A DNA stretch of 64,000 bases. Origin: an uncultured SAR116 cluster alpha proteobacterium. Lineage in GTDB: Bacteria; Pseudomonadota; Alphaproteobacteria; Puniceispirillales; Puniceispirillaceae. The stretch's first letter is position 1; each line of letters begins with the position of its first letter. Where the stretch lies: assembly GCA_902622515.1 (NCBI GenBank), contig CACNQE010000009.1, forward strand, positions 5,001 to 69,000. The letters run 5' to 3'. The notes under the pieces are model-generated. The model saw only the letters and a program-made list of their open reading frames with translations, had not been told where the DNA came from and made no database searches. A program made the position numbers and the translations under genes. This document shows, one piece after another, positions 85 through 64,000 of the stretch.

Positions 85-1254
85 TTAGACTCGGTTAAAG
101 GCGGCTTCAAGTCTTGTCAAAGCCGAATCTAAAACTTTTTTTGGTGTGGCTATATTAAATCTTAGAAACCCTGCGCCTCCGTTGCCAAACATTTCACCAT
201 AACTAGCTGCAACCTTTGTTTCTGCCTCTATCTTGTGTTTGTATTCTGATAAACTCAAATTATATGCTTGATAATCTACCCAACACAAATAAGTAGCCTC
301 AAGTGGCATCGAAACTAATCCTCCGATTTGATTAATTCTTTTCTCAAAAAGTACCTTATTTTTTGATAGGTAAATTAAAAGCTGGTCAAGCCATTCTTCA
401 CCTCCGTTGTAAGCCGCTGTTGTCATTGCAACCCCAAAACTACTTGGAGAAATTGCTAAGGCTGAGAGTGTCTTTTTAAATTTAGCACGAAGTTTTTCGT
501 CTGAAATTATTACGTTTCCGGTATGCATGCCTGCTATATTAAACGTTTTTGTGGTTGAAGTTAGAGTTATCAAATATGATCGAGAAGACGGTACTGCTTT
601 CTCAAAAGGTAGATGTGTAAAATCACCATAAACTAAATCGTGATGTATTTCGTCAGAAATGATAACCAGATTATGTCTCTCTGAAAACTCAGCCAACTGC
701 TCTAATTCTTCACTACTCCAGACACGACCTCCTGGATTGTGCGGCGAACATAGAATAACCATCTTCTCATTTCCAGTTAACCTTTGAGAAGTTGCCTCTA
801 AATCCATCCTATATTTTCCTGTCTCATCAATAACAAGTGGCGACTCAATTAGTCTTCTTCCAGAAGCCTCAATTACTCGTGAAAAAGCGTGGTAAACGGG
901 AGAGAATATAATTATTCCATCTCCTGGTTTAGTATACGCCTGGATGGAAAGCGCAATTGCATTTACAATACCGTGAACAGAAAAAAGAGCATTAGGCTGA
1001 ACTTGCCATTTATGTCTTCGTGCCATCCAATTACAAATTGCTTGCCTGTAATTATCATCTTCACGAGCATATCCATAAATGCCTTTCTCTGCCATTCCAC
1101 GAATAGCTTTTGTTACCGCCTCTGGCGCCTGAAAATCCATATCTGCTACCCACATTGGGATGGCTTCACTTGGTTGCAAACCATAAAGAGATTGCAAAGA
1201 ATCCCATTTTTCTGAATTAGTACCAATGCGATTATGTATTATATCAAATTGCAT
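85..1254 (-). CDS. patB: PatB/MalY-type PLP-dependent C-S beta-lyase/aminotransferase
   Basis: A fold-type I PLP enzyme of 389 residues, the usual length for the MalY/PatB family, which cleaves cystathionine or cysteine-S-conjugates to a thiol, pyruvate and ammonia. Visible landmarks are the N-terminal PMWVADMDF block, CSPHNPGGRVW near residue 169, the cofactor aspartate in SDEIHHDL (about D201) and the Schiff-base lysine in TSTTKTFN (about K236). It is transcribed away from the SDR gene across a 181 bp gap. A TTTAAAC-GG-GTTTAAA palindrome lies 3-19 nt before its ATG and no strong Shine-Dalgarno is seen. The family is sure; the substrate (cystathionine or another C-S compound) is inferred. 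Confidence 0.88.
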   Translation of the reverse strand: MQFDIIHNRIGTNSEKWDSLQSLYGLQPSEAIPMWVADMDFQAPEAVTKAIRGMAEKGIYGYAREDDNYRQAICNWMARRHKWQVQPNALFSVHGIVNAIALSIQAYTKPGDGIIIFSPVYHAFSRVIEASGRRLIESPLVIDETGKYRMDLEATSQRLTGNEKMVILCSPHNPGGRVWSSEELEQLAEFSERHNLVIISDEIHHDLVYGDFTHLPFEKAVPSSRSYLITLTSTTKTFNIAGMHTGNVIISDEKLRAKFKKTLSALAISPSSFGVAMTTAAYNGGEEWLDQLLIYLSKNKVLFEKRINQIGGLVSMPLEATYLCWVDYQAYNLSLSEYKHKIEAETKVAASYGEMFGNGGAGFLRFNIATPKKVLDSALTRLEAAFNRV

Positions 1255-1257
1255 GAA

Positions 1258-1273
1258 TTTAAACCCGTTTAAA
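1258..1273. promoter_or_regulatory. Palindrome before the patB start
   Basis: Seven-base arms TTTAAAC and GTTTAAA face each other around two bases, just upstream of the patB ATG on the minus strand. The position would suit an operator or an RNA hairpin that hides the start. It is AT-rich and short, so chance is possible. No regulator gene is adjacent. Confidence 0.3.
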
Positions 1274-1435
1274 AAAGTACTTTTGTATTAAAAACCCACC
1301 CCAAAAGTTAGATTAATTGATTTCACCATATTACTATTCAAAAATTCTTCGTCAAACACACAAAAAAAGTGTAACACGGTTTTAATAATGTTCTTTCCTA
1401 TTTAAAAGTAAGTGAATACATATAGATAGACTAAG

Positions 1436-2269
1436 ATGAGACAGACCATTTTAATAACAGGCTGTTCGAGCGGCATAGGTTATAATTGCGCTTTAAAATT
1501 TCAGCAAAAAAATTGGCACGTTATTGCCTCTTGCAGAAATGTTGAAGATTGTGCGTTTCTGAAATCTCAATATGGACTTGATACGGTTCGCATCGACTAT
1601 GAAAAACCAAACACCATTAAAACAGGTTTTAATAAAGCTTTAAAATTGTCAGGGGGAAGACTGGATGTGCTTTTTAATAACGGTGCATACGCTATCCCTG
1701 CTGCTGTAGAAGATTTACCTACGAATGCCCTACGATCTATTTTTGAAGCAAATTTATTTGGCTGGCATACACTTACACGATTGGCGCTACCGATAATGTT
1801 TGAACAAAAATCTGGGCGCATTATTCAAAATTCATCTGTATTAGGATTTGCTGCAATGCAATTCAGAGGTGCATATGTTGCAACAAAATTTGCTCTTGAA
1901 GGATTAACGGATACAATGCGGCTGGAATTACGGGGAACTGGGATAGACGTTATTCTTATAGAACCTGGACCAATTCGAACAAAAATCCGTGAAAACGCAC
2001 TAATACAATTCGAAAAATGGATAGGTTGGGAAGAAGCTCGCCAAAAATCTACCTATGTGCATAAGTTAATTCCTCGTCTTTCAATAACGAACCCAGATAA
2101 AGACTTATTCGAATTATCAGCCTCTTCTGTTAGTGAGGCTGTATGGCGCGCATCAACAGCTAAAAAACCACGAGCTCGATATAGAGTAACGTGGGCAACA
2201 ACACTAATGATGGTAACGAAGAGACTGTTTCCTACATGGCTAATTGATAATATTTCAAGGCATTATTAA
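1436..2269 (+). CDS. Short-chain dehydrogenase/reductase (classical SDR)
   Basis: A 277-residue NAD(P)-dependent oxidoreductase. The Rossmann motif TGCSSGIG is at residues 8-15, NNG at 81-83, the catalytic serine in NSS near 133 and the YxxxK pair at Y147 and K151. The C-terminal tail, about 40 residues longer than minimal SDRs, resembles the SDR group that reduces lipid-like or retinol-like carbonyls. The gene stands alone, divergent from patB and convergent with the hydroxypyruvate isomerase gene 34 bp away. The substrate cannot be read from sequence. Confidence 0.85.
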   Translation: MRQTILITGCSSGIGYNCALKFQQKNWHVIASCRNVEDCAFLKSQYGLDTVRIDYEKPNTIKTGFNKALKLSGGRLDVLFNNGAYAIPAAVEDLPTNALRSIFEANLFGWHTLTRLALPIMFEQKSGRIIQNSSVLGFAAMQFRGAYVATKFALEGLTDTMRLELRGTGIDVILIEPGPIRTKIRENALIQFEKWIGWEEARQKSTYVHKLIPRLSITNPDKDLFELSASSVSEAVWRASTAKKPRARYRVTWATTLMMVTKRLFPTWLIDNISRHY

Positions 2270-2303
2270 TTGATAGGTATCAAAATTCTAGTTCTTTCTG
2301 AAC

Positions 2304-3086
2304 TTATACCTGAAAATCTCTCATCCATTCTAATGAATCTTCTGTGTGCCCTGTCGGCTGATATTCAGCTCCAAAATATCCAGAATAACCCTCTTCTTTA
2401 AAACTATTGAACAATAGGGGATATGAAAATGCATTTTTATTTGGCTCATTTCTATCTGGAAATGACGCAAACTGGATGTGAAAGATATCCTGTTTTAAAT
2501 ATTTAAATGCCTTAAAAAGAGCCTCTTTTGAACCTGTTATGTGTAACATATGAAAACAGTCGAACATAATACCCACCCTATCAGAATTAATTTTTTCGAT
2601 TACATCTCTTGCTCTTTGAACTGAAGACATAAAATAACCAGGAACAGAATATGAATTAATAGGTTCGATTATAATCTTTACGTCTGTGTCTTCTAACTTT
2701 TCTAGGGCATAATCAATATTCTGACATAAGGTGTCAAAAGCGGAAGAATCAGATGTTATGCCAGACATAATATGTATATACTGAACATTGATTTCTTTAG
2801 CATATTCAACAGCTCTATCTATTGCCTGCTTTGCTTGTGGTATAGCATCACGAAGTGCTGATAATCCAAATTGTCCTTGTTCACCTTTAGATGTGTTTAT
2901 AGCTAGCATTGGTATAGCCTCATCCTCACACACCCGCCTCAAATCATGTGGAGAACATGCATAAGGTCTCTGACATTCAACTGCCTGGAAACCTGCTTCA
3001 GATGAGCGAAGTATTGCTTCAATTAGTTCGTACTCGGTAAATAAATATCCTAGGTTTGCAGAAAGGGAATAGCTCTTCAATTGCAT
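2304..3086 (-). CDS. hyi: Hydroxypyruvate isomerase-like sugar isomerase (AP endonuclease 2/TIM barrel family)
   Basis: A 260-residue TIM-barrel protein of the Hyi/xylose-isomerase-like family, which interconverts hydroxypyruvate and tartronate semialdehyde. Metal-ligand regions fit the fold: IEPIN near residue 133, MFDCFHMLH near 177 and a late GAEYQP block. The ATG given here has GGAG only one base upstream. A TTG two codons later (3080) would have ideal 7-base spacing and may be the true start. No glyoxylate carboligase or tartronate reductase gene lies nearby, so the pathway role is inferred from family. Confidence 0.78.
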   Translation of the reverse strand: MQLKSYSLSANLGYLFTEYELIEAILRSSEAGFQAVECQRPYACSPHDLRRVCEDEAIPMLAINTSKGEQGQFGLSALRDAIPQAKQAIDRAVEYAKEINVQYIHIMSGITSDSSAFDTLCQNIDYALEKLEDTDVKIIIEPINSYSVPGYFMSSVQRARDVIEKINSDRVGIMFDCFHMLHITGSKEALFKAFKYLKQDIFHIQFASFPDRNEPNKNAFSYPLLFNSFKEEGYSGYFGAEYQPTGHTEDSLEWMRDFQV

Positions 3087-60700: not shown

Positions 60701-61477
60701 ATGAGTAAAAGTGCAGAGAACACACAAATTCCGACGGGTAATTACCAAGTAGATTTTGGTTATCGAAAAGTTTCACTTACTCAAAAGCAAGATTTGGTGA
60801 ATGATGTTTTCAATTCTGTTGCACCTTCTTATGATATTATGAATGACTTAATGAGCATGGGTGTTCATAGACTTTGGAAGGAAACACTGCTTGACTGGAT
60901 GGCACCGCGCCCTAATCAAGTGCTAGCAGATTTGGCGGGTGGAACGGGAGATATTGCACTTCGCTTTGTTCAAAGAGGTGGTCAATTCGCATATATTATA
61001 GATATAAATCAGCAAATGCTAGCCTCAGGCCAAAAGAGAAAAGTAATGGAAAATTATAAAAATAAGCTTAACTGGCTACCTGGCGATGTGCAAGCTATAC
61101 CTTTAGCAGATAATAGTGTGGATAGAGTGACTATCGCCTTTGGACTTAGAAATGTTCCAGATCGAACCAAGGCATTAAAACAAATAGCTCGTATTCTTAA
61201 ACCCGGCGGGAGATTTTGTTGTCTTGAATTTTCACATGTAAAAAACCAATTATTATCTTTTATATACGATAAATGGTCTTTTGATGTGCTTCCCAGGCTC
61301 GGTCACCTCATAGCTGGCGATAGTCAATCTTATCAATATTTAGTAGAATCTATTCGCCAATTTCCATCCCAAACAGAGCTTAGTTTAATGATGGCAGATG
61401 CAGGAATGTCACAAATTAAAGTTAAAACACTTTCTGGCGGAATCGCAGCGATCCATTCAGGGTGGAAACTAGATTAA
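60701..61477 (+). CDS. ubiE: Ubiquinone/menaquinone biosynthesis C-methyltransferase
   Basis: A 258-residue SAM-dependent methyltransferase of the ubiquinone pathway. FNSVAPSYDIMNDLMSMGVH near residue 38 and the SAM loop DLAGGTGDIALRF near 85 are clear, as are AFGLRNVPDRTKAL near 147 and the C-terminal GGIAAIHSGWK. Its stop overlaps the ubiB start as TAATG. Confidence 0.97.
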   Translation: MSKSAENTQIPTGNYQVDFGYRKVSLTQKQDLVNDVFNSVAPSYDIMNDLMSMGVHRLWKETLLDWMAPRPNQVLADLAGGTGDIALRFVQRGGQFAYIIDINQQMLASGQKRKVMENYKNKLNWLPGDVQAIPLADNSVDRVTIAFGLRNVPDRTKALKQIARILKPGGRFCCLEFSHVKNQLLSFIYDKWSFDVLPRLGHLIAGDSQSYQYLVESIRQFPSQTELSLMMADAGMSQIKVKTLSGGIAAIHSGWKLD

Positions 61478-62997
61478 TGTCTTACCTGATAGCTATATTT
61501 AGACTTCCTTATATCGGACTTATACTTGGAAGGGCAGGAGTTTTAGGCCATATTAGTAGATTTGCACCATTACCTGCATGGCAAAAATCACTCTTCAGAT
61601 TCGTTAACTTTCTTGTAGCTGGTCAAAATAGCCAGAAAAATGCGGGTGAAACACTTTGTCTTGCTTTGCAAAAACTAGGTCCCGTATTCATAAAATTTGG
61701 ACAGGCGTTATCCACTCGTTCGGATTTACTTGGCCCAGATATTGCTCGCGGATTAGTAATGCTTCAAGATAGTATTCCTCCATTTTCATCACAAATTGCC
61801 AAGAAAATAATTGAACGTGAAACAGGAAAAAAAATTGAGGAAATCTTTGTTTTTTTTAAAGATCAACCTGTAGCTGCCGCTTCAGTTGCGCAAGTACACA
61901 GAGCAAAACTTACTGATGGACGTGACGTAGCGATAAAAATACTTCGTCCAAACATTCACAAACGTATGGCAAAAGATATAACTTTTTTTTATTCTCTTGC
62001 CAAAATAATGGAATTTCTTGCTCCGCAACTTAAAAGATTACGTTTAGTTATAGCTGTAGAACAGTTTAAACAATTAACTGAGCTCGAACTGGATATGCGG
62101 ATGGAAGCCGCTGCAGGTGGCAAATTACGAGATAATTTGGCATCTGATAAAGGTGTTCGAATTCCTTGGATAGAACATGGGCTTACAAGTAAAAATATTC
62201 TTGTTTGTGAATGGATTACAGGACATAGAATTGATGACGTAAAAGGCCTTGTTGCCTCGGGTCATACAATTGATGATATCACTAATAAAGCAGCAACGAG
62301 CTTTTTTAACCAAGTATTTAGAGATGGATATTTTCATGCAGATATGCATCCAGGAAATATATTTGTGACATCTGATGGAACGTTAGTGCCAATTGATTTT
62401 GGTATTATGGGGAGTCTTTTGCCGGAAGACAGATTTTTTTTAGGAAGTTTGCTTATAGCTCTACTGGAGAGAGATTATGATAAAGTTGCAAGACTACATT
62501 ATGATGCAGGTATGCTTCCAGAGGGGGCCTCTCTTTCATTATTTGCACAAAATTTGAGAGCGCTCGTTGACCCTGTAATGGATAAACCTTTAGATGAGAT
62601 AGAACTAAGTGAAGCCCTTGGTCAAATATTACAAATATCAGCTAGATTTAATATTTGCGTGCAGCCCCAGTTCAATCTACTTCAAAAAACAATGGTGATG
62701 GCTGAGGGTGTAGCACGCAGCCTCAATCCCAAAGCAAATATGTGGCATCTTGCAAAACCGCTTGCGTCTGAATGGATTCAGTCTCAGACAGGTTTTGCAT
62801 TGAAACTACAGGGATACTTCTCAGATATTGAACGGGTTGTTCGCACCCTCCCAAAGATTATAGATAAATATGAAAAGAGTTTAATAAAGCAAAATGCTGA
62901 AAGAAATGAAAACAAAAAATCTGTCTTTATGTCTAACTTAGGTTGGTTTTTTAGCGGCATAGCAATAAGTGTTGCTTTTTTTCTTTTTTACAGCTAA
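61477..62997 (+). CDS. ubiB: Ubiquinone biosynthesis regulatory kinase-like protein UbiB
   Basis: A 506-residue ABC1/ADCK-like atypical kinase needed for ubiquinone synthesis. KFGQALSTRSDLLGPDIARG near residue 77 (KxGQ motif), the alanine-rich loop AAASVAQVHRAKL near 134 and the catalytic DMHPGNIFV and PIDFGIMG motifs near 290-310 are intact. It ends in one transmembrane helix. The ATG overlapping the ubiE stop is preferred to an in-frame GTG five codons upstream. Confidence 0.95.
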   Translation: MSYLIAIFRLPYIGLILGRAGVLGHISRFAPLPAWQKSLFRFVNFLVAGQNSQKNAGETLCLALQKLGPVFIKFGQALSTRSDLLGPDIARGLVMLQDSIPPFSSQIAKKIIERETGKKIEEIFVFFKDQPVAAASVAQVHRAKLTDGRDVAIKILRPNIHKRMAKDITFFYSLAKIMEFLAPQLKRLRLVIAVEQFKQLTELELDMRMEAAAGGKLRDNLASDKGVRIPWIEHGLTSKNILVCEWITGHRIDDVKGLVASGHTIDDITNKAATSFFNQVFRDGYFHADMHPGNIFVTSDGTLVPIDFGIMGSLLPEDRFFLGSLLIALLERDYDKVARLHYDAGMLPEGASLSLFAQNLRALVDPVMDKPLDEIELSEALGQILQISARFNICVQPQFNLLQKTMVMAEGVARSLNPKANMWHLAKPLASEWIQSQTGFALKLQGYFSDIERVVRTLPKIIDKYEKSLIKQNAERNENKKSVFMSNLGWFFSGIAISVAFFLFYS

Positions 62998-63007
62998 CTT
63001 CAATTAT

Positions 63008-63033
63008 GTGAAAATTTCACCAAATTGTGAAAA
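63008..63033 (+). promoter_or_regulatory. GTGAAA half-site cluster before the HTH-coaBC start
   Basis: A perfect-armed palindrome GTGAAA-A-TTTCAC (63008-63020) is followed by a third GTGAAA at 63027, immediately before the ATG at 63034. The cluster fills the 36 bp gap after ubiB. An operator bound by the encoded helix-turn-helix domain is the natural guess. Confidence 0.5.
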
Positions 63034-64000
63034 ATGAGTTATCAAGATAAATTAAACTATTTGATTAATGCTTTTGGAGGCGCTGATAATTTTCAAAAAC
63101 TACTTGGCGTGGGTCCTAGTGCTTTAAGTAATTATAAAAGCCGAAAACATTTACCTTTGAACCAAGCAAAGAGATTATCTAAAATAGCCCCTCAGTTTGG
63201 TTTTAATTTAGACCCACATAGCCTGCAAATTAGGACTAGTGATAAAAATCAAAAAACGGAAATATTGCTTATTATAACTGGTGGTATTGCTGCATATAAA
63301 GCTCTTGAACTTATTAGACGATTACGAGATTTTGAATTCTCCATCACGGTGGTGATGACAGAGGCAGCCAAAAATTTTATAACACCGCTATCGGTATCTG
63401 CACTTACTGGAAATAAAGTTTACTCAAATTTATTTGATTTAACTGATGAGCAAGAAATGGGACATATACAACTTGCTCGCAAGGCGGAATTAATTTTAAT
63501 TGCTCCAGCAACAGCTAATTTTATTGGAAAAATGGCCCATGGGCTTGCTGATGATCTTGCAAGCACTATTTGTCTAGTAACAGACGCTCCTATTTTTGTT
63601 GCGCCCGCAATGAATCCACACATGTGGTCAAATATTGCAACTCAGGAAAACTGTACTACCCTGTTGAATAGAGCTGTTCGCTTCTTAGGTCCAGACAATG
63701 GCAATACCGCATGTGGGGAAATAGGCTCTGGTAGATTTGCCGATATCTCGTTCATTGTTTCTGAGATACAAAAAACATTACACATTAAGCTAAACGAAAA
63801 AATAAGAATTGGTAATAAAAGTCAGCAAAAACCATTGGACGGAATAAGAATTCTTATAACTGCAGGACCTACTTATGAGCCTGTTGACCCTGTGAGATTT
63901 ATTGGAAATAGATCATCTGGAAAGCAGGGATTTGCAATTGCAAATGCCTGCGCTGCTGCTGGCGCGTCAGTGTGTCTCATTTCAGGACCAGTTAATTTAG
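63034..64000 (+). CDS. coaBC: CoaBC (phosphopantothenoylcysteine decarboxylase/phosphopantothenate-cysteine ligase) with N-terminal HTH domain, partial
   Basis: The gene runs off the window, and 322 codons are visible. Residues 1 to about 60 form a small helix-turn-helix domain (helix NFQKLLGV, turn GPS, recognition helix ALSNYKSRK) in the same frame as a standard CoaBC. CoaC begins at [13 protein letters not shown] near 80. Its active-site histidine is in [16 protein letters not shown] follows, and the catalytic cysteine is in [10 protein letters not shown]. The CoaB nucleotide fold opens [20 protein letters not shown] near 285. There is no stop, and only a TTG without a Shine-Dalgarno between the parts, so they are one protein. 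It makes 4'-phosphopantetheine in coenzyme A synthesis. Confidence 0.88.

Follow-up and report, generated by a model that had tools for sequence, protein, structure and literature searches.

A Cro-type helix-turn-helix domain fused to the coenzyme A enzyme CoaBC in SAR116 bacteria, with a candidate operator in front of its own gene

Introduction

SAR116 is an abundant group of ocean bacteria. In the window analyzed here (the whole stretch of 64,000 nucleotides from an uncultured member of this group), the gene of CoaBC, an enzyme essential to coenzyme A synthesis, carries an N-terminal helix-turn-helix (HTH) domain of the phage Cro type in the same reading frame, and a conserved array of candidate half-sites lies directly in front of the gene. 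Based on the comparative analysis described below, we consider it quite likely that this HTH-CoaBC is, like BirA or PutA, an enzyme and its own transcription factor in one chain, which would bind and repress its own promoter.

Results and discussion

One reading frame joins the HTH domain to a complete CoaBC

Read in the whole contig, the gene starting at ATG 63034 on the forward strand encodes a protein of 489 amino acids, the start of which is held by the window (63034–64000). The preliminary description of this DNA had claimed a single frame from this ATG through the HTH into CoaC, with no stop and no good internal start, and both parts of the claim hold: the end of the window is reached without any stop, and the next methionine appears only at residue 108, within CoaC. 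Since a TGA sits one codon 5′ of it, ATG 63034 is the first in-frame ATG; the open frame counts 490 codons with a leading Lys.

The protein is organized as a Cro-type HTH (about residues 3–55), a linker and a complete CoaBC. All features lie on the forward strand. The HTH domain (residues 1–62; 63034–63219), defined by profiles, a structural model and order-wide conservation, has its recognition helix at about residues 28–36, with the codon of Arg37 (63142–63144) next to the helix end. The linker to CoaC (63220–63252), which spans roughly 10 to 60 residues in relatives, is followed by the CoaC flavoprotein domain (PPC decarboxylase, residues 74–248; 63253–63777; profile matches) and by the start of the CoaB domain (PPC synthetase, residue 269 onward; 63838–64000), which continues beyond the window to residue 489. 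The feature end given earlier, 63300, falls just beyond HTH and linker.

In a profile search, TIGR00521 (CoaBC) spans residues 74–476 with 413 bits against a cut-off of 219.7, a full-length match above the curated cut-off that places the protein in the CoaBC family. The residues H144, N194 and C227, which we take to be the catalytic His, Asn (of the PxMN motif) and Cys of CoaC, are invariant across 29 aligned rows. Enzymatic activity is expected because the genome holding the window has a single CoaBC match.

Upstream, a UbiB-like open reading frame (61462–62997, forward strand) is separated from coaBC by a gap of 36 bp; downstream, the coaBC stop overlaps the start of a dut-like (dUTPase-like) gene, followed by a moeB-like (MoeB/HesA-like) gene, all three names being read off the sequences. 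A terminator-like stem-loop with a T run (62953–62976; expected 0.1 times in shuffles) falls within the last part of the UbiB-like gene, immediately ahead of the region upstream of coaBC.

Profile and fold evidence for a Cro-type domain

As a single sequence, the HTH of the window stays below the curated cut-offs for a P22-Cro-type or carph-isopro domain. Residues 9–56 match NCBIfam NF046037 (carph-isopro) with E 8e-6 and 26 bits, under the 38-bit cut-off, and three Pfam HTH models match, each under its cut-off (P22_Cro 13.8 versus 30.2). Together with relatives the assignment becomes clear: NF046037 is matched by 29/29 family members at E 0.1 or better, and at E 0.1 the Pfam models YdaS and P22_Cro are matched by 23/29 and 22/29 members. 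The Pfam check suggested at the outset thus turned out weak for the single sequence and clear with its relatives. A profile of the 29 rows finds the solved phage Cro 3bd1 at E 1.2e-10, which indicates homology to Cro, and further P22 Cro 1rzs (E 0.011) and Pfl 6 Cro 2pij (E 0.04). The TAL-like BurrH proteins (4cja, 4cj9) in the profile listing were set aside, as they consist of many short repeats, none of which passes alone.

The AlphaFold model of residues 1–77 (pLDDT 84.3) predicts helices at residues 3–13, 17–24, 28–36 and 42–55, and its best fold match is 3bd1 (Z 6.7, 2.2 Å over 59 residues). Foldseek also ranks 3bd1 first for this model, with probability 1.00 at an E of only 0.093 and no match at E 0.001. 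With this Foldseek E value and with HTH-bearing enzymes nearly tied, the model argues with moderate strength for a Cro-like fold. Family profile and predicted fold together confirm the initial description of the N-terminus as an HTH resembling Cro and phage repressors. A model of residues 1–260 (pLDDT 87.9, pTM 0.73) places a short pair of strands and then the CoaC fold after the HTH. The dN/dS ratio of codons 1–60 amounts to 0.03–0.11 in eight genus-level pairs, with dS saturated in some of them (the pair L007–L008 was left out, being out of register); judged by its codons, the HTH is translated and under purifying selection.

The fusion is conserved across SAR116

SAR116 is described in PMC8547437 as the GTDB order Puniceispirillales with four families, and the family codes seen in this analysis (f1–f4) are equal in number. 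Among 61 genomes searched, including that of the window, 57 contain a CoaBC match. HTH and CoaC share one frame in 55/57, among them G027 and G032, where the contig begins inside the HTH; in the other two, G058 and G060, the gene runs off the contig end. A separate HTH and CoaC, which had been named beforehand as a result speaking against the fusion, was not seen in these relatives. Across the order, the HTH profile matches in 110/136 genomes (two of these, G444 and G506, as short frames of 43 and 35 codons) and in 42/43 of the good ones, defined by completeness of 90% or more and contamination of 5% or less. The HTH frame runs on into CoaC in all 106 genes used for the site counts below (91 by motif, 15 by sequence). 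In a tree of 61 CoaC domains, a single clade of all fused proteins was not rejected (p-AU 0.725), the constrained tree being the more likely one. Most simply, the HTH would have joined CoaBC once, in the SAR116 ancestor.

Eight of the best 80 of 580 loci from named genomes carry the HTH. From the 72 HTH-less loci, L140 (unparsed) and L146 (motif irregular and no HTH on inspection) were excluded; the 70 parsed ones show no significant HTH match and have a start codon no more than some 20 residues away from the CoaC GGI motif. These 70 alphaproteobacterial genes begin at CoaC and agree with the earlier statement that ordinary CoaBC starts straight at the decarboxylase, and the proposed survey of CoaBC architecture across Alphaproteobacteria finds the fusion in SAR116 and HTH-less CoaBC in these 70 loci. 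No HTH-CoaBC was seen outside SAR116 in the 25 loci opened from the class sample, the eight rows of the phylum sample or the best 80 of the 580 named-genome loci. In the class sample, the HTH profile matches in 75/385 genomes; of its 30 best loci, five belong to the SAR116 order, and the other 25 comprise seven HisZ, three crotonyl-CoA carboxylase/reductase, one free HTH, one short frame and 13 other genes. The phylum sample yielded matches at E 1e-5 in 6/398 genomes, all of the same class, and among the eight rows only that of the window is CoaBC, while L300 is CarA.

Two CoaBC sequences without HTH carry a SAR116 label: L059, the second CoaBC of G009 (contig C79; a genome of the window's genus with 7% contamination), and L155, from a record titled SAR116. 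Both are likely mislabelled or contaminant, because they fall among the HTH-less Alphaproteobacteria in the tree.

A half-site array precedes the fused genes

The candidate operator of the window, GTGAA-N3-TTCAC-N6-GTGAA (GTGAAAATTTCACCAAATTGTGAA; 63008–63031, forward strand), consists of three half-sites without mismatch (63008–63012, 63016–63020 and 63027–63031). It occupies part of the 36 bp that separate coaBC from the UbiB-like gene, ending two bases before the ATG. The array was first noticed by eye and afterwards tested. Its position is the only place with fewer than two mismatches in the genome and with fewer than three in the window.

Within 48 upstream regions of 100 bp, 109 exact half-sites were counted versus 10.0 in dinucleotide shuffles, with L015 and L021 scoring 0 (start choice) and a few loci unparsed. 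This count is superseded by a start-independent one over 170 bp upstream of the HTH, with one gene per genome and a few first codons included in some regions; the site counts exclude L016 and L023 (no upstream DNA) and the second loci of one genome. Here, TTCAC/GTGAA is present at least once in 65/65 and at least twice in 57/65 of the HTH-CoaBC genes of f1–f3, and, across the 54 loci with enough flank, the mean is 2.70 half-sites versus 0.24 in other parts of these loci (Wilcoxon p 1.6e-10, exaggerated by relatedness). The 70 HTH-less coaBC genes have a mean of 0.37 against a background of 0.21, with at least one half-site in 23/70 and at least two in 2/70. An unbiased count of all 5-mers in f1–f3 ranks GTGAA/TTCAC first (174 versus 15.4, in 65/65 genes). 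Because the genomes are related, all these counts and p-values make the genes look more independent than they are.

Two Cro-type HTHs acting as a pair are expected to require facing half-sites separated by roughly one turn of DNA. The observed spacing is stereotyped: in f1, a distance of 11 bp separates facing half-sites (22 times) and one of 8 bp those placed back to back (18 times); in f2 and f3, the facing distance is 10 bp (10 and 3 times). Among the matches listed, the exact array GTGAA-N3-TTCAC-N6-GTGAA occurs at no fewer than 17 places in at least 15 of 61 genomes, all of f1 and each just before coaBC; in those 15 genomes, for which all matches were listed, it was found nowhere else. 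At two mismatches the three-half-site pattern loses its specificity, being hardly commoner than the control in many genomes. A single exact half-site is present in some f1 genes (L040, L041, L255 and L256).

A wider regulon was looked for in the genome of the window using TTCAC-N6-GTGAA. The exact pattern occurs at three places, and the two other than the array lie inside open frames; with one mismatch it occurs 71 times, as does the control (71), and thus nothing in this genome points to a CoA regulon.

Recognition helix and half-site change together

At the end of the recognition helix (S-N-Y-x-x-R), the genes of f1–f3 encode Arg (61 genes) or Lys (four genes) as residue 37. In the 41 genes of f4, Trp takes the place of Tyr34, and position 37 is occupied by Leu (25), Asn (8), Lys (4), Val (2), Ile (1) or Gln (1). 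The half-site differs as well: TTCAC/GTGAA falls to a mean of 0.15 in f4, and TTCAT/ATGAA reaches 3.8 versus 0.94. Genus g14 accounts for 30 of the f4 genes, and in the last 100 bp before these TTCAT/ATGAA ranks first among 5-mers (30/30); in the 11 f4 genes outside g14, no clear site was found upstream. With 200 bp of upstream DNA, other words, probably coding, top the unbiased count in f4. The TTGAAATATTTCAA stretch, recurrent in f4 genomes beyond g14, was not called an operator, as it seems to lie in upstream coding sequence.

Overall, Arg (rarely Lys) goes with the TTCAC lineages and mostly other residues with TTCAT. Residue 37 alone is no complete code, because Lys37 occurs with both half-sites: with TTCAC in four genes of f1–f3, in four genes of f4, and with TTCAT in 15 genes for HisZ bearing the same HTH (see below). 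The simplest reading, a hypothesis with support from these sequences, is that an Arg–guanine contact would have been lost along with the guanine. The half-site switch in f4 counts as one evolutionary event and HisZ as one more.

The same HTH heads other alphaproteobacterial enzymes

Two other alphaproteobacterial families also carry the HTH, with profile matches in 24/28 and 15/18 genomes. The frame continues into a HisZ motif in 38/39 genes used (loci L074–L078, L080, L081 and L222–L253); the 39th, L229, is cut by the contig end, and HisZ is seen only at its start. The profiled HTH-HisZ example is the ATP phosphoribosyltransferase regulatory subunit. In the 300 bp upstream of these 39 genes, TTCAT/ATGAA reaches 5.8 versus 1.1, although by rank TATGA is the top 5-mer and ATGAA the second. 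A facing TTCAT/ATGAA pair was found in 33/39 genes, with exactly TTCAT-N5-ATGAA in 30. We conclude from these sequences that HTH-HisZ is probably self-regulating. A candidate target DNA for HTH-HisZ is TTCATATTATATGAA.

In a third family, the HTH is fused to crotonyl-CoA carboxylase/reductase at 22/23 loci (L083–L085 and L304–L322; L303, a 126-aa frame that is not the reductase, and L323, a 50-aa frame, were dropped). Upstream of the reductase genes, AACAC/GTGTT is enriched (68 versus 4.4, in 22/22), a 5-mer that ranks fourth by ratio and was picked after looking; a GTCAA...TTGAC palindrome also stands upstream of many of these genes. In locus L300 (genome G314), positions 1200–3018 encode the HTH and CarA, the small subunit of carbamoyl-phosphate synthase, in one frame (CarA 406.7 bits; carph-isopro 51.6 versus 38). 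By eye, GGGAA/TTCCC repeats lie around 1374–1456 of L300, just upstream of HTH-CarA. At the level of sequence, at least three enzymes combine a fused Cro-type HTH with repeated half-sites before their own genes.

The HTH also precedes longer alphaproteobacterial proteins (L086–L098). One of them, L091, is mitofilin-like (PF09731), an odd partner for a Cro-type HTH, with carph-isopro at residues 49–100. Locus L079 (G241) encodes an HTH of this family as a separate protein of 68 aa, which may show what the domain looked like before it was fused.

Predicted autoregulation and its alternatives

The idea that the HTH is a DNA-binding part which couples CoA synthesis to the expression of its own gene, put forward in the preliminary description, gains support from comparative genomics: the predicted self-binding is supported because half-site arrays are conserved before the fused genes and change with the recognition helix. 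In terms of a trigger enzyme, enzyme and DNA-binding-type domain are found in one chain, and an operator at the own gene is indicated by conservation. HTH-CoaBC thus probably controls its own production. DNA binding, repression rather than activation and, as pure inference, control by a ligand of the CoA pathway are predicted.

Mechanistically, a Cro-type (P22/Xfaso-1-like) HTH would have joined the N-terminus of CoaBC, and its recognition helix would read the GTGAA/TTCAC half-site, with the two to five half-sites present before coaBC in most genes as its targets. The bound protein would block transcription of coaBC and, in the genome of the window, of the overlapping dut-like and the moeB-like gene. 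In this way the enzyme might signal how much of it is present, and perhaps whether substrate or product occupies it, as BirA or PutA do.

Alternatively, HTH-CoaBC could bind the upstream DNA but act as an activator, or merely tether the enzyme to DNA. The sequence does not reveal the sign of regulation, and the sites differ in position, those of genus g1 ending at the start codon and those of four g10 genes ending 14–32 bp before the start. On the other hand, the sites of the window and of an f2 locus lie on or behind promoter-like hexamers, where repressor sites are usually found, and we regard activation or tethering as improbable. In the window, the weak sigma-70-like promoter TTTACA-17-GAAAAT (62987–63015, forward strand; 9/12 matches) overlaps the candidate operator with its −10 element, a match no better than chance (three promoter-like sites in the stretch versus 1.4 in shuffles); in the f2 locus L051, inspected by eye, half-sites lie between and just after the hexamers.

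The main rival to DNA binding, which we rate as slightly less probable still, is an HTH serving as a structural or substrate-gating add-on that does not bind DNA, with the upstream sites belonging to another regulator. The phosphonate enzymes HppE, HEPD and MPnS carry HTH-like domains as such non-DNA-binding add-ons, and the fold matches of our model include 6b9s (MPnS; Z 6.6, practically tied with the 6.7 of 3bd1), 6b9t (MPnS), 6b9r (HEPD) and 1zz9 (HppE). An extra assembly domain is also conceivable because CoaBC is an oligomer (6tgv is a solved full-length CoaBC). However, the half-sites accompany HTH-bearing coaBC and hardly HTH-less coaBC, they differ where the recognition helix differs, and they recur with HisZ bearing the same HTH. 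Moreover, at E 0.001 a single HTH of this family is present in 109 of the 110 matching genomes of the order (G512 has two), which leaves no free-standing paralogue to account for the upstream sites.

Finally, we give practically no weight to the possibility that an error of assembly or base calling removed a stop and so linked an upstream HTH gene to coaBC: the window's genome is a draft of 39 contigs, but the same stop-free fusion appears in independent records of four families, compatible with one origin (p-AU 0.725), and this intact fusion in relatives together with the dN/dS values rules out a frameshift or missing stop.

Comparison with known systems

Beyond the autoregulatory CoaBC proposed here, the finding of the same HTH on HisZ, crotonyl-CoA carboxylase/reductase and CarA points to a general path along which repressors of phages turn into feedback elements built into metabolic enzymes. 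We lean slightly towards the view that a phage-Cro-type repressor has repeatedly been fixed on alphaproteobacterial enzymes (CoaBC, HisZ, crotonyl-CoA carboxylase/reductase and CarA), each reading its own half-site array, so that level, oligomer state or occupancy would feed back on transcription. On this view, an oligomeric SAR116 CoaBC would offer many HTHs to the half-site array, giving a one-gene feedback loop for CoA synthesis. The natural half-site variants are ready for work on protein–DNA specificity, and the question of self-binding is directly testable with one purified protein and 36 bp of DNA.

Enzymes repressing their own genes are already known, and the HTH is catalogued as carph-isopro. 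In the open-access literature searched, we found no paper on a DNA-binding CoaBC and none containing the term carph-isopro. This label (NF046037) is listed as a domain without function, and its name may, as a guess, come from enzyme fusions (carbamoyl phosphate, isopropyl-). It is matched weakly or better by 29/29 rows of our family, with the window sequence alone under its cut-off, and in profiled examples it also heads HisZ, crotonyl-CoA carboxylase/reductase, the mitofilin-like protein and CarA.

HTH-CoaBC shares a complete CoaC and CoaB, and the status as single CoaBC of its genome, with ordinary CoaBC (Dfp), but the latter starts at CoaC in the 70 HTH-less loci parsed. With the P22-family Cro proteins (Xfaso 1 Cro 3bd1 of a Xylella prophage, P22 Cro 1rzs and Pfl 6 Cro 2pij) it shares the sequence profile and a predicted fold nearest to 3bd1; unlike these small, free-standing phage repressors, its HTH is fused to a housekeeping enzyme. 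The DNA-binding domain of BirA is a winged helix and that of PutA a ribbon-helix-helix. Both BirA (biotin ligase) and PutA (proline dehydrogenase) are described in PMC6978683 as trigger enzymes, in which one chain is enzyme and repressor of its own pathway genes, and HTH-CoaBC resembles them, as characterized there, in combining a metabolic enzyme and a putative repressor in one chain. It differs from both in being an enzyme of the CoA pathway, in its HTH of the phage Cro type and in a predicted target that is essentially its own gene.
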